From Opitutia bacterium (lineage in GTDB: Bacteria > Verrucomicrobiota > Verrucomicrobiia > Opitutales > UBA953), in NCBI GenBank assembly GCA_947456525.1, contig CANGRI010000011.1, positions 1 through 32,709 of the forward strand: 32,709 nt of DNA. Reading direction: 5' to 3'. The notes below the pieces were generated by a model. It saw only the letters and a program-made list of their open reading frames with translations. It made no database searches and was not told the DNA's origin. The position numbers and the translations under genes were made by a program. Below, in pieces: positions 1,459-11,075 of this stretch; within the stretch, counting starts at the first letter, position 1; the number at the start of each line of letters is the position of its first letter.

Positions 1459-1485
1459 AAGGCCCCTCACGGGGCCTTTTTGTTT
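1459..1485 (+). terminator. Rho-independent terminator of the small exported protein gene
   Basis: AAGGCCCC-TCAC-GGGGCCTT is a perfect 8-bp stem with a tetraloop, followed by TTTTGTTT. It starts 22 nt after the stop codon at 1436. Confidence 0.9.
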
Positions 1486-1512
1486 GGGGGCGCGCACCTT
1501 TCCCCAAAACGA

Positions 1513-1542
1513 TTGTCTCAAGCGAGACGCCACGACTACAAA
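1513..1542 (+). promoter_or_regulatory. Possible promoter of the FAD oxidoreductase gene
   Basis: TTGTCT (1513-1518), an 18-nt spacer and TACAAA (1537-1542) lie just before the ATG at 1559. The match is modest. A 5-bp inverted repeat, GTCTC-AAGC-GAGAC (1515-1528), overlaps the -35. A promoter is required here because a terminator ends at 1485. Confidence 0.35.
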
Positions 1543-1558
1543 CCCATCACCCGCCCCG

Positions 1559-3250
1559 ATGATCAAAGCAGCCCTCCGACTCCTGACTCTGGCCGCCCTT
1601 GCCGTCTCCGCCTTCGGAAGGGAACTGCCCAAGCCCGCCACGCCGAACCCCGGACTGCGCTATTACTACCCGATACCCAAGGAGGCCGCGACGAAGACGT
1701 TCGAGTTCGACGTCGTGATCTACGGCGCCAGCCCGGCGGCGGTCTCCGCGGCCTGCCAGGCGAAGAAGATGGGCAAGTCGGTAGGCGTCTTCGTCTTCCG
1801 CCGCCACGTCGGTGGGATGTCCTCCTCCGGCCTGAGCGATGTCGACTACGGCAAAAAGACCGCCATCGGCGGCATGGCGAAGACGGTCTACCTCGATTTC
1901 TTCAAGAAGCAGGTCCAGAGCCCGGCCGAGGTGGAGACGCTCTTCCTGACGATGCTCGCCGACCTCGGCATCCCGGTCTTCTTCGAGCACCGCCTCGAGC
2001 GCGTGGAACGCGACGGCGGCCGGATCGCGAAGCTGGTCTTCGAGAACGGCAACGCCGCCCGCGGCAAGGTGTTCATGGACACGACCTACGAAGGCGACCT
2101 GATGGCCCGCGCGGGCATCGCCCTCGTGGCCGGCCGCGAACCGGCCGCCGAGTTCGGCGAGAAGCTCAACGGCATCCAGATCGGCGCCGGTTCCTCGCCT
2201 CACAACTTCCAGTGGAAGGTCGATCCCTACGTGGTGCCCGGCGACCCGAAGAGCGGCGTCATCGAAGGCGTGGATGCGAAGCCTTACGCCGCGGAAGACC
2301 ACGGCAAGCCGGACAAGCGCTACCAGCCCTTCTGCTTCCGCGTCTTCGCCACGAAGAAGGACCCCCTGCCCTGGCCGAAGCCGGAAGGCTACCGCCCCGA
2401 GCGCTACGAACTGCTGAAGCGCTACGTCAACGCGGCGCCGGACTCCGGCTGGTGGAACCTCATGTACTCCCGCGGTCCGTTGAAGCTGAACGAAGGCGAT
2501 TGCAACAGCGCCGGCCCAGTGTCGCTCGACTATGTCGATGGCAGCAAGCACTGGGCCGAAGCCAGCTACGAGGAACGCGAAAAGATCTTCCAGGACCACG
2601 TGAACTACCAGCAGGGCTACCTCTACTTCCTCGCCAACGACGCGAGCATCCCGGCCGAACTGCGCGGCCGGGTCAGCCAGTTCGGCCTGACGAAGGGCGA
2701 GTTCCCCGAGACCGCCGGCTGGCCGCACGAGCTCTACGTGCGCGAGGGACGACGTCTCCGCGGCGACTACGTCCTCACGGAGCACGACTGCCTCGGCAAG
2801 ACGAAGGTCGAGGACTCCGTCGGCCTGGGCAGCTTCATCATGGATTCGCACGTGGTGCGTCGCATCATCTACAAGACCGCCAAGGAAGGCCGCATCACCC
2901 ACCTGCGCACGTCCAAACCCGAGGAGATCACCGAAGTCCAGCGCGAATGGAAAGGCGACATGGTCGGCGTCGAAGGCCAGTTCGACTACGCCGTGCCGAA
3001 GCCCTACCGCATCAGCTACCGCTGCCTACGCCCGAAGAAGGACGACTGCGTCAACCTGCTTGTCCCGACGGTCATCTCCTCCACCCACCCCGCCTTCGGC
3101 TCGATGCGCATGGAGCCCGTCTTCATGATCCTCGGCCAGAGCGCCGGCGCCGCGGCGGCCCTCGCCATCGACGGTGGCCTGGCGGTCCAGGACGTCGACT
3201 ACGCGAAGCTTCGCGCCATCCTCCTAAAGGAAGGCCAGCTGCTCGACTGA
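1559..3250 (+). CDS. Secreted FAD-dependent oxidoreductase (FAD_oxidored, PF12831-like)
   Basis: The protein is 563 residues. The ORF track begins at a TTG (1484) inside the preceding terminator. The ATG at 1559 is chosen because it gives a clean signal peptide (MIKAALRLLTLAALAVSAFG). After about residue 45 comes a Rossmann dinucleotide-binding start of the form V.YGASPAAVSAACQAKKMG, with a downstream RRHVGGMSSSGLSDVD segment. The C-terminal part has ISSTHPAFGSMRMEP...GQSAGAAAALAI, which closes the FAD site in this family. Members are flavoproteins of mostly unknown substrate, common in Planctomycetota and Verrucomicrobiota and often near sugar-degradation genes; none is seen here. The substrate cannot be told from sequence. 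It converges on the next minus-strand gene with 13 nt between stop codons. Confidence 0.8.
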   Translation: MIKAALRLLTLAALAVSAFGRELPKPATPNPGLRYYYPIPKEAATKTFEFDVVIYGASPAAVSAACQAKKMGKSVGVFVFRRHVGGMSSSGLSDVDYGKKTAIGGMAKTVYLDFFKKQVQSPAEVETLFLTMLADLGIPVFFEHRLERVERDGGRIAKLVFENGNAARGKVFMDTTYEGDLMARAGIALVAGREPAAEFGEKLNGIQIGAGSSPHNFQWKVDPYVVPGDPKSGVIEGVDAKPYAAEDHGKPDKRYQPFCFRVFATKKDPLPWPKPEGYRPERYELLKRYVNAAPDSGWWNLMYSRGPLKLNEGDCNSAGPVSLDYVDGSKHWAEASYEEREKIFQDHVNYQQGYLYFLANDASIPAELRGRVSQFGLTKGEFPETAGWPHELYVREGRRLRGDYVLTEHDCLGKTKVEDSVGLGSFIMDSHVVRRIIYKTAKEGRITHLRTSKPEEITEVQREWKGDMVGVEGQFDYAVPKPYRISYRCLRPKKDDCVNLLVPTVISSTHPAFGSMRMEPVFMILGQSAGAAAALAIDGGLAVQDVDYAKLRAILLKEGQLLD

Positions 3251-3263
3251 GTCCGGACCGGCC

Positions 3264-4484
3264 TCAGGCCATCATCTTCCGCGCCTTCTCGAGCGAGACG
3301 GCCAGGCGGTCGACTTCCTCGAGCGTATTGTAGAACGCGAACGAGGCGCGGGCGGTCCCGCTGAGTCCGTAATGCTTCATGAGGGGCATGCAGCAATGAT
3401 GTCCGGTGCGGATGGCGATGCCGTCCGCGTCGAGCAACGTGCCGATGTCGTGCGGATGGCCGCCTTCGATGTTGAAGGAGATCACGGCGACCTTCTCCGG
3501 CGCTTCGCCCACGATGGTCAGTCCCTTGATGGCCTTGAGGCGCTCGGTGGCCGCGGCGAGCAAGGTCTGCTCATGCGCATGCGCGGCCGCCTGGATGGGC
3601 ATGAAATACTCGAGGGCGACGCCGAGGGCGATCGCGCCGGAGATGTCCGGCGTGCCGGCCTCGAAACGCTCCGGGGCCTCGCGGAAAGTGGTGCCGGCGA
3701 AGTCGACCTTGCGGATCATGTCGCCTCCGAACTGGTAAGGCGGCATGGCGTCGAGCAGCTCGGGCCGGCCCCAGAGCACGCCGATGCCGGTCGGCCCGAA
3801 GGTCTTATGGCCGGAGAAGGCGTAGAAGTCGCAACCAAGCGCGGGGACGTCGACCTTGAAGTGCGCGGCGGCCTGGCAGCCGTCGATGAGCACGAGGGCG
3901 CCGGCGGCCTTGGCGAGACGCGTCATCTCGGCGGCGGGGTTGACCGTGCCGAGGGCGTTGGAGACGTGGGCGAAGGCGACGAGCTTGGTGCGGGCCGAGA
4001 GCAGTCCTTTGAAGGCGACGAGGTCGACCTCGCCGCGCGGCGTGACGGGCGTGACGACGACCTTGGCGCCGGTGCGTTCAGCGATGACCTGCCAAGGTAC
4101 GATGTTAGCGTGGTGCTCAAGGTGCGTGAGCAGGATCTCATCCCCGGCCCGGAGGTTCGCGCGCCCCCAGCATTCAGCGACGAGATTGATGCCTTCGGTA
4201 GCGCCGCGGACGAAGACGCAGCCGCGGGCATCCTTGAGGCCGAGGAATTTCGCGACCGAGGCGCGGGCGGATTCATAGGCCGTGGTGGCCTCCTCGCTCA
4301 GGAGGTGGACGCCACGGTGCACGTTGGCGTTCTGCTCGGAGTAGTAGCGCTCGAGGGCCTTGATGACCGCCGCCGGCTTCTGGGAAGTGGCCGCGTTATC
4401 GAGGTAGGTCAGCGGACGACCGCGCACGGATCGTCCCAGGATCGGGAAGTCCTTGCGGAGGGCGGCGACGTCGAACACAGGCAT
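3264..4484 (-). CDS. sufS: Group II cysteine desulfurase (SufS/CsdA type)
   Basis: This 406-residue PLP enzyme removes sulfur from L-cysteine as a protein persulfide, mainly for Fe-S cluster assembly. It has the N-terminal TYLDNAATSQKP block (26-37), NVHRGVHLLSEEAT, and HHANIVPW. The PLP lysine is K227 in SGHKTFGPTG. The catalytic cysteine is C364 in RTGHHCCMPLM, the SufS-type signature; a second Cys, C365, follows directly where Ala is usual in E. coli SufS. The length is normal for the family. It starts 47 nt after the ftsZ stop with no terminator or clear promoter between, so it is probably the last gene of the dcw unit. No sufBCD, sufU or sufE is visible, so the acceptor is unknown. No Shine-Dalgarno precedes the ATG. 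Assignment to SufS rather than CsdA rests on general similarity. Confidence 0.9.
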   Translation of the reverse strand: MPVFDVAALRKDFPILGRSVRGRPLTYLDNAATSQKPAAVIKALERYYSEQNANVHRGVHLLSEEATTAYESARASVAKFLGLKDARGCVFVRGATEGINLVAECWGRANLRAGDEILLTHLEHHANIVPWQVIAERTGAKVVVTPVTPRGEVDLVAFKGLLSARTKLVAFAHVSNALGTVNPAAEMTRLAKAAGALVLIDGCQAAAHFKVDVPALGCDFYAFSGHKTFGPTGIGVLWGRPELLDAMPPYQFGGDMIRKVDFAGTTFREAPERFEAGTPDISGAIALGVALEYFMPIQAAAHAHEQTLLAAATERLKAIKGLTIVGEAPEKVAVISFNIEGGHPHDIGTLLDADGIAIRTGHHCCMPLMKHYGLSGTARASFAFYNTLEEVDRLAVSLEKARKMMA

Positions 4485-4531: not shown

Positions 4532-5659
4532 TCAGGGCGACGGAGGCAGGCGTACGGCCTTGCGGATATAGGCCGGCACGTCCACGTCCTGTCCGTCGAT
4601 GAAGGTCATCGGGGTGCCGCCGAACAGGCCGCGGCGCATGGATTCTTCCGTCGCGAACTCGAAGATCGGCTGAGCGGGGTCCTCGGCCTTGGCGCCCTTC
4701 TTGGGCTTGGCCGGAGCCTTCGGCGCCGGCAGCGAAGCGCCGAGCACCGAGACTTCGATGCGGTCGCCGAGGGCCGGCTCGATGCGCGCGCAGAGGACCG
4801 TGGAAGTCTCGCCGCCGAAACGCGTGCGGACCGCGGCCACGGCCTCGAAGGCCTCGGTCGAGGTCATCGCGGGACCGCCGGCGACATAGACGAAGAGCGA
4901 GGCGACCTTGGCGACCGCGCCGGGCGCGTGCGCGAGCGGACAGTCGCAGGCCGCGCGGGCGGCCTTCATCGCGGCGCCTTCGCCCTCGCCGACGCCATAG
5001 GCGAAGAGCGTGGGCGAGCCGGGCGTGGAAAGGAGCGAGCGGACCGCGGCGGGATCGACGGCGATGAGCGCGCCGGGCGCGAAGGCCGAGGCGAGTCCGC
5101 GGATGGCGCCGCCGACCCAGTTGTCCGCCGCGGCGAACGACTCGGAGAGCGGAGCGTCGGGCGAGACCTGCTGGAGCAGGAGATCGTTATGCACCACGAC
5201 GAGCCCGTGGCACTTCTGCCCGAGCTTGACCGTGGCGTCGTTGGCCTGACGCATGCGACGTTCGCCTTCGTGCGAGAACGGCATCGTGGCGAAGGAGAGC
5301 ACCGTCGCGCCGGTCTCGGCCGCGAGGCCGGCGACCACCGGTGCGGCGCCGCTGCCGGTGCCGCCGCCGAGGCCGGTGACAAGCACCACGAGCGGCACGC
5401 CGGCGAACAGCCGACGGAGGCCGGCTTCTTCGGACTCCGCGGAAGCGAGCCCCAGCGCGGCTTCGCCGCCCGTCCCCATGCCGCGGGTCTGCGCGCGTCC
5501 GAGCTGTAGGGTCTGCGCGGTGCCGGCGGGCAAGGAACGGGCGTCGGTGTCGAGCAAGGCCACGGCGACCTCGGCCGGTAGCTGCGCCGACAGGCGCGTG
5601 ACCATCGAGCACCCCGCCCCGCCGAGGCCGACCAGGAGGATGGAAGCGGGCGTCGACAT
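4532..5659 (-). CDS. ftsZ: Divergent cell division protein FtsZ with an altered T7 loop
   Basis: This 375-residue tubulin homologue would form the division ring. The GTP-binding signature GGGTGSG is at 98-104, with LLDTDARSL (36-43) as the T3-type loop, EGERRM (131-136), and NDLLL (158-162). The C-terminal tail DVPAYIRK (360-367) matches the conserved peptide that binds FtsA and other anchors. Two departures stand out. The T7 loop, NVDFAD in E. coli (N207, D209, D212), reads AVDPAA here (200-205), keeping only the middle Asp. The guanine-contacting N-D pair of E. coli (186-187) is D-N here (179-180). The N-terminal extension is absent and the linker before the tail is short and Lys/Pro/Ala-rich. 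The start lies one base after the ftsA stop. Position and the tail support FtsZ rather than another tubulin-like protein; GTPase activity is uncertain. Confidence 0.9.
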   Translation of the reverse strand: MSTPASILLVGLGGAGCSMVTRLSAQLPAEVAVALLDTDARSLPAGTAQTLQLGRAQTRGMGTGGEAALGLASAESEEAGLRRLFAGVPLVVLVTGLGGGTGSGAAPVVAGLAAETGATVLSFATMPFSHEGERRMRQANDATVKLGQKCHGLVVVHNDLLLQQVSPDAPLSESFAAADNWVGGAIRGLASAFAPGALIAVDPAAVRSLLSTPGSPTLFAYGVGEGEGAAMKAARAACDCPLAHAPGAVAKVASLFVYVAGGPAMTSTEAFEAVAAVRTRFGGETSTVLCARIEPALGDRIEVSVLGASLPAPKAPAKPKKGAKAEDPAQPIFEFATEESMRRGLFGGTPMTFIDGQDVDVPAYIRKAVRLPPSP

Positions 5660-5660
5660 C

Positions 5661-6896
5661 TTAGAGGCGGAAGAGCTCCTTGAGCTGGGCGAGGAAACCG
5701 CGCGGGCGCCGCACGGGCGGCGGAGCGTCGGTGATCGCGGCGGTCATGAGGCCCACCACGCCGGCATACTCGGGCTTGCGGAGGGATTCGTTCTCGAAGT
5801 TCGGGACGCCCACGCGGGCGGAGAGACCGGTCACGAGCTGCACCGCCTCGGCCGCATCGGCCAGGCTGGCGGAACCGCCGGTCAGGATGACGCCGGAGGG
5901 GATCATGTTCTGATCAAGCTTCACGGCGTGGCCGGGGAAGATGGCCTCGAGGCGGCGGAGCACGTCCTTGCGCACGAACTCGATCGTCTCCTGGTAGCGG
6001 AGCGAGAGCACCTGCGTGATGGTGCCGCGGTTGAACTGCTGGTCGCCGACGCCCTTGTCGCCGTCCTTCCAGATGGTCTGGTTGACGTCGGTGTCGCGGT
6101 GCATCGCCGAACCGAAGCGCAGCTTCAGGTCCTCGGCCGTCTCGCGGCTGATGCGGAGCGCGACGCTTAGGTCGTTGGTCAGGTGCTCGCCGCCCACGGG
6201 GATCGAGCCCGCGCAGAGGATGTGCTCCTTGTAATAGAGGATCCAGTCGGTCGTGCCGGCGCCCATGTCGATCACCAGCACCCCGCCCTGCTTGTCGGCG
6301 TCGCTGGCGGTGGCGCAGGCCGCGGCGTGCGAGGCCAGGATGAAGTCGCGGACGCGGATGCTCATGCCGTTCACCATCCCGACGCGCATGCGCATGTTGC
6401 CCTCCTCCATCGTCACGCGCCAGAAGTTCACCTCGAGGCGCTTGCCGGCCATGCCGACCGGGTTGCTGACCGGACGGTTGTCCAGCATCGTCGGCTGGCG
6501 CATGTAGAGGATCGTCGCGCGGCCCGACGGCGGTTCGAGGCGCTTGGCCGAGGCGATCGCGTCGGCCACGTCCTTGGCGGTGACCTTGCCGTCGTGCGCG
6601 GGCACGGCGACGAAGCCCTTCACGCGTTCGCCTTCGGCGGCGGGACCGGACAGGGAGAGGTAGACGTGGTCGACGGCGCGGCCGGAACCGCGTTCGATGT
6701 CGTTGACGACCTCATGGACGCACTGCGTGAGCTTCTCGAGGTCGGTGACGGTGCCTTTCACGACGCCGTCGGTGCGGCGTTCGCTGAAGCTGAGCATGCG
6801 GGCCTTGCCGTCGATGATCTGGCCGAGGAGGCTGGCGGTCTTGTGCGTGCCGATGTCGATGACGGCGATGAGGGAAGGAAGGGGCTTGGGGGTCAT
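5661..6896 (-). CDS. ftsA: Cell division protein FtsA, actin-like membrane anchor for FtsZ
   Basis: The protein is 411 residues, with the ATG at 6896 that overlaps the ftsQ stop as ATGA; the ORF track extends further upstream by read-through. The actin-fold phosphate 1 motif is AVIDIGTHKT near residue 12. The second phosphate motif is VLVIDMGAGTTDW, and the adenosine motif is ILTGGSASL. The last residues (RGFLAQLKELFRL) form an amphipathic helix, matching the membrane-targeting sequence of FtsA. It tethers FtsZ filaments to the membrane and signals to the FtsQLB and FtsWI machinery. The neighbours ftsQ and ftsZ are in the classical order. No Shine-Dalgarno is visible before its start, so translation is probably coupled to ftsQ. 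Confidence 0.93.
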   Translation of the reverse strand: MTPKPLPSLIAVIDIGTHKTASLLGQIIDGKARMLSFSERRTDGVVKGTVTDLEKLTQCVHEVVNDIERGSGRAVDHVYLSLSGPAAEGERVKGFVAVPAHDGKVTAKDVADAIASAKRLEPPSGRATILYMRQPTMLDNRPVSNPVGMAGKRLEVNFWRVTMEEGNMRMRVGMVNGMSIRVRDFILASHAAACATASDADKQGGVLVIDMGAGTTDWILYYKEHILCAGSIPVGGEHLTNDLSVALRISRETAEDLKLRFGSAMHRDTDVNQTIWKDGDKGVGDQQFNRGTITQVLSLRYQETIEFVRKDVLRRLEAIFPGHAVKLDQNMIPSGVILTGGSASLADAAEAVQLVTGLSARVGVPNFENESLRKPEYAGVVGLMTAAITDAPPPVRRPRGFLAQLKELFRL

Positions 6897-7876
6897 CGGA
6901 TGGGAGCGGCGGGGGCGGGGACGAGGCGAGGTTCGGGAACGGGAGAGGAGGCGTTCGTGCGATTCTGGATCGACATCTTCAGCACGTAGGCCTGCGCGGT
7001 CGTGCCGGGCCGGCGGAGCAGTTCGTCGACGTTGATGCGCCCGAGCAACGCGAGCTCGTTGCGCCAGTTGGCGGTGGAGAAGACGATCTCGACGAGCGCG
7101 GGCCGGTCCATCGGCTGGGTGCCGGGACGCACGGTGACGCGCAGGTTGGAGCCCGGCGAATCCTCCTGCGCGCCGAAGCAGTCGCGGAGCGAGACCGCCG
7201 ACCACTGCTTGTAGAGGTTCGGATACTGCGTGCGGACGACGAGCAGGAACGGGGCGGCGATCTCGACGCCTTCGATCAGCATCTTGTCGTCGCTGCCGGT
7301 GGCGCGGTAGTCCTGGATCTCGGGCAGGCTGCGGACGGCCTGCTCGGGGTAGCCCGTGCCGGCGAAGGTCTGTCCGTCGGAGGCCACGAGGCGGACCTGG
7401 ATCGGCGCGCTCTTGCCGGACTGGGTCGTGATCCTGGCCACCGCGAGGCGCTCGCGCAGCGAGATCTCGAGCGAGCCGTCGTTACGGCGGCGGACGTCGG
7501 CGGCGACGACCTGGTTGTCCGACTCGAGGTCGGCCTTGATGACGCGCACATCGCGCCCGAAACCATCGGGGCCGTTGGCGACGATCTTCTTCACGAAGTC
7601 GGCGGGCAGGAAACCGTCGGTCTTGAAACGGAGCGCTCCGCCCGCGGGGGCGGAGGTGGCGGATTCGTCGACGGCCCACCAGAGCACGCCGACGACGGCG
7701 GCGAAGAAGATCACCGCGAGGACGGTGGGCAGCTTCGAGCGCACGGCGCGCTTGCGGCCGATTTCGCCCTCGGGGACACGGTTGACGTCCTGCGGGACGA
7801 GCGCGCGCCAATCGCGGTCGGCCGGACCCATGAAGGCGTCGCGGCGTTTGCGGAAGAGGTTGTCGAAGAGGCCCAT
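6893..7876 (-). CDS. ftsQ: Cell division protein FtsQ/DivIB-like
   Basis: This 327-residue bitopic protein has a basic cytoplasmic N-terminus of about 49 residues (RKRAVRSK before the membrane), one transmembrane segment at about 50-69, and a periplasmic part. The latter begins with a POTRA-like region (FKTDGFLPADFVKKI) and continues to ISLRERLAVARI, which corresponds to the E.-P-VA stretch of FtsQ. The C-terminus is Pro/Ala-rich. It would join FtsL and FtsB as the divisome regulatory subcomplex. Sequence identity in this family is always low; the assignment rests on topology, the POTRA-like stretch and its place between ddl and ftsA. It starts 2 nt after the ddl stop. Confidence 0.82.
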   Translation of the reverse strand: MGLFDNLFRKRRDAFMGPADRDWRALVPQDVNRVPEGEIGRKRAVRSKLPTVLAVIFFAAVVGVLWWAVDESATSAPAGGALRFKTDGFLPADFVKKIVANGPDGFGRDVRVIKADLESDNQVVAADVRRRNDGSLEISLRERLAVARITTQSGKSAPIQVRLVASDGQTFAGTGYPEQAVRSLPEIQDYRATGSDDKMLIEGVEIAAPFLLVVRTQYPNLYKQWSAVSLRDCFGAQEDSPGSNLRVTVRPGTQPMDRPALVEIVFSTANWRNELALLGRINVDELLRRPGTTAQAYVLKMSIQNRTNASSPVPEPRLVPAPAAPIR

Positions 7877-7878
7877 GT

Positions 7879-8802
7879 TCAGCGGCGGACGGGTTGGGCG
7901 GCGCGCGCAAGGGCCGGAGCGGCCATGCGGCGGACGAGGGCGGGGAAGTCGAGGCCGACGCAGGAAGCGCTCTTGGGCATCAGGCTGGTTTCGGTCATGC
8001 CGGGCATCGTGTTGATCTCGAGGAAATAGAACCTTCCGTCAGGCTCAAGGAAGACATCCGCGCGGGCGAAGTCCCGGCAGCCGCAGGCGGCGAAGAGCCG
8101 GGCGGCCGCCGCACCGATGGCGGCGGTCGCTTCCGGGCCCACGGGCGCCGGGAAGCGGTACTCCGAGGCGCCCTTGGTGTATTTGGTCTTATAATCGTAC
8201 ACGCCGGCCAGAGGGACGATCTCGACGAGACCCATGGGCTGGCCGTCCAGGAGACCGATGGACATCTCGCGGCCGCGGAGGCGGCGTTCGGCCATCCATT
8301 GGCCGGAAGCGGGGATCTCGGCCAGGGCCTTGGCCACGGCGGCCTGCCCTTCCAGCATGTAGAGGCCGACGCTGCTGCCCTGGTCCGAAGGCTTGATGAC
8401 GACCTGCTCGCCCAAGGCGGCCACGAGCGCGGCGGCGGCGGGCTTGGCGGCGCCCGCGAAGGCGACCTCCGGGATGGCGGGGACATCGGCACCGCGCATG
8501 GCGCGCTTGGTCGCGACCTTGTCCATGCAGAGGCGGTTGGCGGAGGAGGAACAGCCGGCGAAGGCGATGCCGCGGGCTTCCATCTCGGCCTGGGCGCGGC
8601 CATCCTCGCCCCAGCCTCCATGCAGGACGGGCAGGACGACATGCTTGGCGCCGTCGAGCCAGCCGGGCAGGACGTCGGCCTCGAGCTCGACGAGACGCGA
8701 ACCCGGGAGCGCCGACGCCACGGCCTTGCCGGAGCGCAGCGAGACCTCGCGTTCGGAGGAGAGGCCGCCGCAGAGGACGACGATTTCAGGGACGAAGGTC
8801 AT
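7879..8802 (-). CDS. ddl: D-alanine--D-alanine ligase
   Basis: The protein is 307 residues, the normal length. This ATP-grasp enzyme makes D-Ala-D-Ala for MurF. It has CGGLSSEREVSLRSG (11-25), HGGWGEDG (61-68), and KPSDQGSSVGL in the ATP-grasp region. At the C-terminus are RADVFLEPDGRFYFLEINTMPG and MTETSLMPKSA, which carry the Mg-binding Glu and Asn. The ORF track starts far upstream in a frame overlapping murC-murB. The ATG at 8802 is chosen because it forms an ATGA overlap with the murC-murB stop and has GGAAGGA about 9 nt before it, one of the few good Shine-Dalgarno sequences in the window. The tyrosine in KTKYTKGASEYRFPAP is of the D-Ala rather than D-lactate type, as far as can be judged by eye. 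Confidence 0.93.
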   Translation of the reverse strand: MTFVPEIVVLCGGLSSEREVSLRSGKAVASALPGSRLVELEADVLPGWLDGAKHVVLPVLHGGWGEDGRAQAEMEARGIAFAGCSSSANRLCMDKVATKRAMRGADVPAIPEVAFAGAAKPAAAALVAALGEQVVIKPSDQGSSVGLYMLEGQAAVAKALAEIPASGQWMAERRLRGREMSIGLLDGQPMGLVEIVPLAGVYDYKTKYTKGASEYRFPAPVGPEATAAIGAAAARLFAACGCRDFARADVFLEPDGRFYFLEINTMPGMTETSLMPKSASCVGLDFPALVRRMAAPALARAAQPVRR

Positions 8803-11075
8803 AGCAGTTCCTTCCATTCGCGGCCGAGGGCGACGATCTCCGGCTGGAGCTCGACGCCTTGGCGCGACTTCACCTCGGCGCGGACGGCGCGCATGAGTTC
8901 GATGAAGTCGGCGGCCTTGGCGTCGCCGGCGTTCACGAGGAAGTTGGCGTGCGTCGGCGAGACGGAGACCGGACCGACGGCGCGGCCCTTGAGCCCGCTG
9001 ACGTCGATGAGGCGGCCGGCCTTGTCGCCTTCGGGATTCTTGAACACGCAGCCGGCGCTGGCTTCGCGGGGCTGGGAGGCGCGGCGTTGCGCGGCCATGT
9101 CGTCCATCCGCGCGCGGATGGCGGCGGGCTCGTCGCGGCCGGCCGCGCGGAGCACGGCCGAGAGGACCACGGAGCCGTGCAGCTGCGGGCAGTCGCGATA
9201 AAGGGCGTCGAAGCTGTCGCGGCGCGCGGCGCGCACCCTGCCCTGCGGCGTCAGCCACTCGATCGACTCCACGACGTCGAAGATCCAGCCGCCCATCGCG
9301 CCGGCGTTCATGCGCAGCGAGCCGCCGACCGTGCCGGGAATGCCTTCGAGGAATTCGAAACCCTTCCAGCCTTCGCGGGCGGCGAAACCGCAGAGCTCCT
9401 TGAGTCGCGTGCCGCCGCCGACGCGCAGACGGCCTTCGCCGAGGTCGGTGACGGCGCCCCAATGGGCCGCGTCGAGATGCAGGATGAGGCCGTCGTAGCC
9501 TTCGTCGGGCACGAGGAGGTTGGAACCGCGTCCGAGGGCGAACCAGCGCAGGTCGAGCTCCGCGGCGGCGCGGAGCAACGTGACGATGTCGTCGACGGCC
9601 GCCGGCTCGGCGTACCAGCGGGCGGCGCCGCCGAGTCCGAGCGTGGTGCGGCGGGCGAGCGGCTCGTTGGCGCGCAGGACGCAATCCGCGGAAAGCCGGC
9701 CGGAGACGAGGTCCGGCAGGTCGAGCGAAAGGATGTCGTCGCCGCGGCGGCGGAGCACCTTCGCGTAGGCTTCGGCGTCGCGCTCGATGTCACCCGCGCC
9801 CACGAAGGCGACGACCGTGTCGGCGCCCTGGGCGAGGCCGTCGAGCAAGGTCGGCAGCGCGCGGCGATCCTCGACGAGGCGATGCGACGAACCGGCCACG
9901 ATCGCGTCGGAACCACCTCCTTCGACCGCGGCTTCGCCCGCGGAATAGACAGGCAGGACCAACGCATGGTCGGCGACCGCGAGGGCGTCGCGGAATTCGC
10001 GCGAGTACTGGCGCGTGCGCGTGTGACGATGCGGCTGGAAGACGACGATGAGGCGGCCGGCGTGCGTCTCGCGGACCCATTTGAGCAAGGCGGCGATCTC
10101 CGTCGGATGGTGCGCGTAGTCGGCGAGCACGCGGAGCCCCGTGCGTTCGAAGAGCACGTCCTGGCGGCGCCGGATGCCGCGCCAGCGGGCGAGCGGCTCG
10201 GCGACAAGCCCGCCGGTGATGAAATGCGTGACCGCGAGCGCCAGCGAGGCATTCGAACGGTTGAACGTGCCCGCGACAGGCAGGTTGAACTGGCCCTCCG
10301 GGAAACGTCCGCCGAGCGAGATCACCGAGGAGGAATGCCCGCCCTGCACGAGACGGAAGGAATAATCGCCGCCCTCGCCGACGCGGATCACCGGGACCTT
10401 GAGTCCGGCGACGAGCCGCTCGAGGCGTTCGTTGCCGACGGGGATCACGACGGCGGTGCGGGTGCGTTCGAACAGCGCACGGAAGACGCCTTCGAGCGCG
10501 GCTTCGTCGCGGTAATAGTCGGGATGGTCCCAGTCGAGGTTCACCGCGACGGTGACATCGGGCGAGAAGGCGCCGATCGTGCCGTCGCTCTCGTCGACCT
10601 CGGCCACGACCCAGGGAGAAGAGGCGGAGGCGCGGGCGGGCGGGAAGGAGGGGTCGCGGAAGAGACCGCCGAGCACGTAACCGAAATCGGCCTCGGCGCT
10701 GGCGAGCGCGGCGACGAGCAGGCCGCAGGTGGTCGTCTTGCCGTGGCTGCCGCAGACGGCGACGAAACGACGCTTCGCGACGGCTTCCGCGAGGAGTTCG
10801 CCGCGGCGCAACGTGCGGACCTCATGGCGCCCGGCGAGCGTGAGCGCGGCGTGGCCGGGCTTCACCGCGCTGGAACGGCCGACGACGGCAGGATGGCGAC
10901 CCGCGGCCCACGGATCGCGCAGCAGCGGGATGTCGGCGTTGGCGAGCTGCAGTTCCATCGGGCTACCCGTCGAATCATCCCAGCCCGAGACGTCCCAGCC
11001 CTCCCCTTTCAGGTAGATGGCGAGCGGACCGACGCCCATGCCGCAGGCGCCGAGCATCCAGGCGGAGGCGCTCAT
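8799..11075 (-). CDS. murC-murB: Fused UDP-MurNAc--L-alanine ligase / UDP-MurNAc dehydrogenase (MurC-MurB)
   Basis: This 758-residue protein holds two consecutive enzymes in one frame. Residues 1 to about 450 are MurC: a nucleotide-binding start (MLGACGMGVGPLA), the ATP loop GSHGKTTT (109-116), AEVDESDGTIGAFSPD, DYAHHPTEI (319-327), and VVFQPHRHTRTRQ, which distinguishes MurC from Mpl. Residues from about 455 are MurB: TTLGLGGAARW and RGSNLLV for FAD binding, GIPGTVGGSLRMNAGAMGG (578-596), and SAGCVFKNP (673-681), then a closing helix and GVELQPEI. MurB makes UDP-MurNAc and MurC adds L-Ala, so the fusion joins successive steps, although the enzyme order in the protein is reversed. In E. coli the proton donor of MurB is Ser229 in GSFFKNP; here that position is C676. 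Both ends overlap neighbours as ATGA. No internal stop or frameshift separates the domains. Confidence 0.95.
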   Translation of the reverse strand: MSASAWMLGACGMGVGPLAIYLKGEGWDVSGWDDSTGSPMELQLANADIPLLRDPWAAGRHPAVVGRSSAVKPGHAALTLAGRHEVRTLRRGELLAEAVAKRRFVAVCGSHGKTTTCGLLVAALASAEADFGYVLGGLFRDPSFPPARASASSPWVVAEVDESDGTIGAFSPDVTVAVNLDWDHPDYYRDEAALEGVFRALFERTRTAVVIPVGNERLERLVAGLKVPVIRVGEGGDYSFRLVQGGHSSSVISLGGRFPEGQFNLPVAGTFNRSNASLALAVTHFITGGLVAEPLARWRGIRRRQDVLFERTGLRVLADYAHHPTEIAALLKWVRETHAGRLIVVFQPHRHTRTRQYSREFRDALAVADHALVLPVYSAGEAAVEGGGSDAIVAGSSHRLVEDRRALPTLLDGLAQGADTVVAFVGAGDIERDAEAYAKVLRRRGDDILSLDLPDLVSGRLSADCVLRANEPLARRTTLGLGGAARWYAEPAAVDDIVTLLRAAAELDLRWFALGRGSNLLVPDEGYDGLILHLDAAHWGAVTDLGEGRLRVGGGTRLKELCGFAAREGWKGFEFLEGIPGTVGGSLRMNAGAMGGWIFDVVESIEWLTPQGRVRAARRDSFDALYRDCPQLHGSVVLSAVLRAAGRDEPAAIRARMDDMAAQRRASQPREASAGCVFKNPEGDKAGRLIDVSGLKGRAVGPVSVSPTHANFLVNAGDAKAADFIELMRAVRAEVKSRQGVELQPEIVALGREWKELL

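Follow-up and report, generated by a model that had tools for sequence, protein, structure and literature searches.

A divergent FtsZ with a single T7-loop acid in a freshwater genus of Opitutae

In model bacteria, GTP hydrolysis by FtsZ drives treadmilling, which is thought to be vital for efficient division. The PVC superphylum includes Planctomycetota and Chlamydiota, which lack FtsZ, and in tubulin the β-subunit has a T7 loop without the acid needed to hydrolyze the GTP of its neighbor. In crystal structures of Staphylococcus aureus FtsZ, the catalytic water is positioned by a swing of D210 (Escherichia coli D209), and D213 (D212) does not move (PMC8936486). The side chain of S. aureus N208 (N207) holds a K+ ion that is locked by Q48 (Q47) of the next subunit, D46 (D45) and N44 (N43) touch the Mg2+ shell, and R143 (R142) is arginine-finger-like; assembly in vitro is lost with each of the substitutions N208L, D210N and D213N, and Q48A assembles with a 6-fold lower GTPase (PMC8936486). 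E. coli D212A retains 7% of the wild-type GTPase activity (PMC8142252) and its filaments form rings in vivo (PMC4383033), and D212G gives static, non-treadmilling rings in vitro (PMC7320174) and complements only with a suppressor mutation (PMC5405962). The FtsZ of Verrucomicrobiota has been described as highly divergent (PMC1845146, PMC9871819, PMC12283558). The residues lost in the FtsZ described here are reported as conserved across species (PMC8936486), and the literature searched, whose reach stopped short of older PVC dcw and D212G studies, holds no report of a loss of T7 acids.

The ftsZ gene and its dcw cluster

The window, meaning the whole 32,709-nucleotide stretch of DNA that was analyzed, carries a complete dcw cluster entirely on the minus strand, comprising mraW, ftsI, murE, murF, mraY, murD, ftsW, murG, a murC-murB fusion, ddl, ftsQ, ftsA and ftsZ. 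The genes that matter most for division are:

4532..5659, minus strand: ftsZ, 375 aa, the single tubulin/FtsZ-family gene found in the window genome
5661..6896, minus strand: ftsA, TIGR01174 242.7 bits, above the cut-off, with an inferred start picked from the ORF
6893..7876, minus strand: ftsQ, assigned by position between ddl and ftsA and matched by relatives' genes in the same place
8799..11075, minus strand: murC-murB fusion, a type known also from Verrucomicrobium spinosum (PMC12283558)
12157..13371, minus strand: ftsW, PF01098 269.7 bits
19287..21083, minus strand: ftsI, septal transpeptidase, PF00905 192 bits plus PF03717

The ftsA product ends in an amphipathic-looking helix, GFLAQLKELFRL, as expected of a membrane anchor, and the ftsQ product (6893..7876) matched no Pfam family. 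Upstream of the cluster, region 1480-3333 of the plus strand holds large ORFs; the 588 aa ORF at 1484-3250 (plus strand) resembles an FAD-dependent oxidoreductase by eye.

The translation of the ftsZ ORF (4532-5659, minus strand), which contains APGALIAVDPAAVRSLL, matches PF00091 with 99.5 bits and PF12327 with 31.5 bits, both above the Pfam cut-offs. Against the NCBI equivalog model TIGR00065 it scores 198 bits, below the curated cut-off of 295.2. That cut-off is passed by 19 of 193 Verrucomicrobiota genomes versus 59 of 60 in the control phylum, and it is unsuited to Verrucomicrobiota because 174 of the 193 have no match above it. An AlphaFold2 model of the protein (pTM 0.73) has the FtsZ fold and superposes on S. 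aureus FtsZ with GDP-BeF3-Mg (7ohk) with a TM of 0.85 by target. Helix H7 spans residues 171-193, T7 ends with D202 and H8 starts at 203; the model is a monomer with a C-terminal half of moderate confidence and gives no firm geometry for the subunit interface. The gene lies right after ftsA in the dcw cluster and its product ends in an FtsA-binding peptide. Most likely, it is the true and sole division FtsZ of a freshwater Opitutae genus, the window coming from a lake bacterium. The functional elements of the protein are:

5606..5608, minus strand: S18, equivalent to E. coli N24 in T1/H1, a nucleotide contact lost together with N207
5537..5551, minus strand: T2/H2 D37-T-D39-A-R41, equivalent to E. 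coli N43-T-D45-A-Q47; Mg-side D45 kept, K+-lock Q47 changed to Arg and N43 to Asp (roles from PMC8936486)
5348..5368, minus strand: T4 G-box GGGTGSG, residues 98-104, intact
5255..5269, minus strand: E131...R135, equivalent to E. coli E138 and R142 (arginine-finger-like), intact; role from S. aureus R143 (PMC8936486)
5045..5062, minus strand: T7 loop A200-V-D202-P-A-A205, equivalent to E. coli N207-V-D209-F-A-D212 by profile alignment
4559..4582, minus strand: FtsA-binding C-terminal peptide DVPAYIRK, residues 360-367, kept across the genus

An earlier sequence-only reading had placed the altered T7 loop at 5040-5063, which encloses the position found here, and its account of GGGTGSG, the DVPAYIRK tail and the place right after ftsA was accurate.

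The T7 loop within the genus

The T7 region of the window protein reads G-A-L-I-A200-V-D202-P-A-A205-V-R against G-L-M-N207-V-D209-F-A-D212-V-R in E. coli. In a profile alignment with MG1655 FtsZ it pairs with E. coli RPGLMNVDFADVRTVM with zero gaps, and phmmer pairs it gaplessly with LINVDFADV of Mycobacterium tuberculosis FtsZ; two methods thus agree, and the catalytic Asp is therefore not displaced by a gap. D209 is kept and N207, F210 (now Pro) and D212 are lost. The sequence-only reading, which counted two of three named residues as gone (N207 and D212) and D209 as kept in the form of D202, was correct on each and left the loss of F210 out of its headline. As AVDPAA, the loop lacks the NxDxxD motif with both acids, a motif that marks the canonical mechanism and not descent and that most Verrucomicrobiota do without.

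All 41 distinct full-length genus FtsZs carry D202 and P203, and N207 and D212 occur in none. Position 200 is Ala in 24, Pro in 16 and Ser in one, and position 205 is Ala in 39 of the 41 and otherwise Val or Ser, so the question raised by the sequence-only reading, whether AVDPAA is conserved in the clade, is answered as follows: 41/41 have Asp-Pro, with Ala, Val or Ser in place of D212. The genus likewise keeps D45, R142 (42/42 sequences), E138, N165 and the G-box, and replaces N24, N43 and Q47. Asp replaces N43 in 42/42 sequences; the Q47 position holds R, A, S or N, with Arg in 33 of 42. Both K+ ligands of the S. aureus type (N208 and Q48, E. coli N207 and Q47) are thereby replaced, and no new acidic residue has become fixed in T7 or early H8 among the 41 distinct sequences.

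FtsZ matches occur in 66 of the 79 genomes of the family, nearly all single-copy. The window genome (65% complete) has one match, as do genus members that are 97-99% complete, and the idea that a second FtsZ helps this one is therefore removed. The additional matches in genomes G060 and G019 come from gene fragments or split genes, and the two full copies in G070, 94% and 89% identical to the query and on different contigs, are most simply explained by two co-binned species. An assembly error, chimera, misalignment or canonical second FtsZ elsewhere in the genome deserves hardly any credence as the source of the unusual loop. The window assembly is indeed fragmented, but the same residues recur in dozens of independently assembled genomes, with D202-P203 kept genus-wide where a sequencing error would have left relatives with NxDFAD; the gapless alignments rule out misalignment or a small gap, and the near-complete relatives have no second FtsZ.

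Pairwise dN/dS within the genus has a median of 0.11, with quartiles of 0.07-0.18 and a maximum of 0.35 (392 pairs). Because of this median we take the genus FtsZ to be under purifying selection, which rules out a decaying gene for the genus, as the sequence-only reading had argued from codon usage. The same figure, together with the conserved FtsA-binding tail and the essentiality of ftsZ in V. spinosum (PMC12283558), makes it very unlikely that this FtsZ is on its way out, a relic kept shortly before loss in cells whose division no longer depends on FtsZ turnover. Such a reading would fit the scores of Verrucomicrobiota FtsZs, which lie far below canonical ones (19/193 versus 59/60 for TIGR00065), and the dcw clusters of some small-genome families in this order, from which ftsA and ftsZ are gone although the rest remains.

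Those families are Opitutales f21, f23 and f24, with genomes of 0.8-1.0 Mb. Their dcw remnant keeps ddl and ftsQ, with ftsW or murC-murB near, and unrelated genes follow ftsQ:

L412, 8280-11044: dcw remnant without ftsA/ftsZ
L417, 8803-11714: dcw remnant without ftsA/ftsZ
L415, 6960-8746: dcw remnant without ftsA/ftsZ
L416, 9906-12378: dcw remnant without ftsA/ftsZ

The f21, f23 and f24 genomes yielded neither a full ftsA nor a full ftsZ, and they appear to have lost both genes while late division genes stayed, as in Chlamydiae. Family f6 gave no FtsZ match. Two genomes of family f14, genus g18, were left out as evidence of FtsZ loss: G146, a single 2.3 Mb contig with a listed completeness of 95%, gave no FtsZ, FtsA or ATP-grasp match, and the lack of even an ATP-grasp protein means that this could be an odd or masked record; G109 gave no FtsZ, full FtsA or Ddl. 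The apparent absence of ftsZ from G059 and G144 (L420, L419) is an assembly effect, the contig ending at ftsQ.

T7 acids and facing residues across Verrucomicrobiota

We collected 255 distinct Verrucomicrobiota FtsZs and aligned them to E. coli FtsZ; six are gapped at 209/212, leaving 249 scored. Both acids are present in 36, D209 only in 176, D212 only in 31 and neither in 6. The control set of 66 FtsZs keeps N207, D209, F210 and D212 throughout; 64 of them come from the phylum to which a Burkholderiales genome belongs, its most divergent FtsZs among them, and two from a Selenomonadaceae genome. Within the window's order most families read N-[LVIQ]-D-F-[AS]-[TSA], that is, D212 alone is lost, and a separate clade of the FtsZ tree (f25, f27, f28, f29, f31) has exchanged D209 for G, T or A and retained an acid at 212. 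The T7 loop noted by the sequence-only reading is thus real in the window protein and is not a feature of that protein alone: the loss of D212 is older and phylum-wide, and the changes of N207 to A/P and F210 to P are the part that falls to the genus and its sister g5. D212 disappeared early in the order (from an E. coli-like NVDFAD to N-L-D-F-A-T), before N207 and F210 changed in these two genera.

Parsimony on the FtsZ tree, the deep nodes of which are weakly supported, requires at least 14 changes at position 209 and at least 19 at 212, so losses at both positions recurred. A dependent model of evolution at the two sites fits better than independence (LR 13.8, 4 df, p=0.008 uncorrected, with several pairs tried); under it, D212 disappears easily from proteins that have D209 and almost never from those without it. 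D209 was tested against 42 positions of comparable conservation, of which D212 gave the most negative odds ratio (0.07) and ranked second by LR. Simulations under independence gave six or fewer tips with neither acid in 16% of runs, and the six FtsZs that carry neither acid mean that the one-acid rule is not absolute. From these patterns, one T7 acid seems enough and loss of both seems to be avoided.

Several observations from the survey stand apart. FtsZs of families f22, f48 and f50 (L179-L184, L201, L210-L214) score 30-90 bits, T1, T4 or T7 can hardly be placed in them, and some are without both T7 acids. One f17 genome (L236, G137:C5:59853-62412) carries two FtsZs, the second with T7 NVGLDDL; this copy clusters with family f25, from elsewhere in the phylum, pointing to horizontal acquisition of a D212-only FtsZ alongside a D209-only one. 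L047 (CALQLO010000013.1), titled Akkermansia muciniphila, holds an ftsZ 86% identical to the Opitutae window gene, and the record name therefore looks wrong.

The either-or pattern of D209 and D212 bears on whether the window FtsZ might be a GTPase-dead scaffold, one that binds GTP, polymerizes and hardly hydrolyzes, with turnover through nucleotide exchange, FtsA or other partners and with D209 kept only as an Asp-Pro cap at the T7/H8 junction. The static, non-treadmilling rings of D212G (PMC7320174) would suit such a protein, as would the conserved D-P exactly at the start of H8, a pair that genus g5 and individual members of families f18 and f52 have acquired as well. Yet the pattern is hard to explain if the chemistry needs neither acid, and R142 (42/42) and D45, both kept, serve catalysis as well as binding; we regard a dead enzyme as unlikely, while still a serious contender.

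Loss of N207 is linked most strongly to loss of N24 across the phylum (rank 1 of 40 positions, LR 25, odds ratio 46) and also to loss of N43 (odds ratio 23, LR 10), against odds ratios of 1-8 for most other positions. N24 and N43 face N207 from the neighboring subunit, so this linkage is expected if T7 still docks and the protein still polymerizes; as correlation and not proof, it suggests an interface facing T7 that has been rewired rather than abandoned. No link of N207 to D209 or D212 was detected (p 0.45 and 0.31). General correlated decay of the active site is thus not the rule, N207 being unlinked to the two acids yet linked to N24 and N43.

The same comparison speaks to a fully restored GTPase, in which a residue such as N43D (Asp37) near Mg2+ compensates for the missing acid or Arg41 replaces K+. 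Asp at N43 in 42/42 and Arg at Q47 in 33/42 genus sequences are what this would call for, but N43D is unrelated to loss of D212 across the phylum (odds ratio 1.1) and tracks N207 instead, Q47 is unlinked to D212 (odds ratio 0.8) with Arg also present in one control FtsZ, and T7 and early H8 of the genus have no newly fixed acid. Neither N43D nor Q47R qualifies as a general replacement for D212, and we consider full compensation distinctly unlikely.

A putative slow-turnover FtsZ and its relation to known systems

We think it probable, though far from assured, that the genus FtsZ polymerizes with GTP and hydrolyzes it slowly through D209 only, at a site free of K+, to give slow-turnover Z-rings. 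This proposal is built on the sequence, its alignment and conservation, purifying selection, gene neighborhood and single copy, and it makes predictions for GTPase rate, K+ independence and filament dynamics. The protein would bind GTP and form head-to-tail filaments, with FtsA as the link to the membrane. As the sole T7 acid, D202 (E. coli D209) would position the attacking water from the upper subunit, with help from the lower subunit through R135 (R142) and, on the Mg side, D39 (D45). Since D212 and both halves of the K+ clamp (N207 in T7, Q47 in the adjoining subunit) are missing, hydrolysis should be slow, on the order of the few per cent seen with E. coli D212A, and little dependent on K+. 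The resulting Z-rings would turn over slowly and serve mainly as a scaffold for FtsW/FtsI, and the site would have arisen stepwise, with D212 lost first in the order and N207 and F210 changed later in the genus and its sister. The main counter-point is that S. aureus N208L and D213N fail to assemble in vitro (PMC8936486), so the losses here could mean poor polymerization instead of slow hydrolysis. A slowly hydrolyzing FtsZ, as the sequence-only reading had also proposed, is the best interpretation, by analogy with E. coli D212A (7% GTPase; PMC8142252) and the static rings of D212G (PMC7320174).

We therefore describe what looks from its sequence to be a genuine FtsZ with a one-acid T7 loop, from a phylum whose divergence was known and in which the loss of T7 acids is apparently new. 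For Verrucomicrobiota as a whole, we advance more tentatively, as a plausible reading that falls somewhat short of probable, that FtsZ works through a one-acid site in which either T7 acid has been lost but seldom both, that many lineages have taken apart the K+ clamp along with the residues facing it on the next subunit, and that division proceeds by slow or non-treadmilling Z-rings. If the one-acid reading is true, fast GTP-driven treadmilling is not generally required for FtsZ-based division, and the phylum holds graded intermediates between canonical FtsZ and FtsZ-free division, which bears on how the PVC superphylum came to divide without FtsZ. The phylum would offer a natural test, without engineered mutants, of which T7 acid carries out the hydrolysis, what role K+ has and whether treadmilling is required.

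Compared with described bacterial FtsZs (TIGR00065; E. coli, S. aureus, M. tuberculosis), the window protein shares the fold, G-box, place after ftsA, FtsA-binding tail, D209, R142 and D45, and differs in lacking D212, N207, F210, Q47 and N24 and in scoring 198 versus 295 bits. The E. coli D212A and D212G (FtsZ2-type) mutants miss the same acid and have slow GTPase, filaments and poor turnover or treadmilling (PMC8142252, PMC7320174, PMC4383033); these are laboratory-made and D212G needs a suppressor (PMC5405962), whereas the loss in the window is natural, old and accompanied by a changed facing surface. V. spinosum FtsZ, from the same phylum, is likewise divergent, lies in a dcw cluster with a murC-murB fusion and is essential (PMC12283558, PMC1845146), but has 673 aa with a long C-terminal extension, unlike the 375 aa window FtsZ. 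Nitrosopumilus maritimus FtsZ is also a natural protein without the NVDFAD T7 motif (PMC3684127), yet it lacks the GTP-binding motif, forms no polymers in a yeast test and works beside Cdv, whereas G-box and divisome are intact in the window. The natural low GTPase of Candidatus Thiosymbion oneisti FtsZ (PMC8953583) has another cause, since its catalytic residues are conserved. In tubulin, one of two interfaces lacks the acid, whereas in a homopolymer of the window protein a D212-type acid would be missing at every interface.
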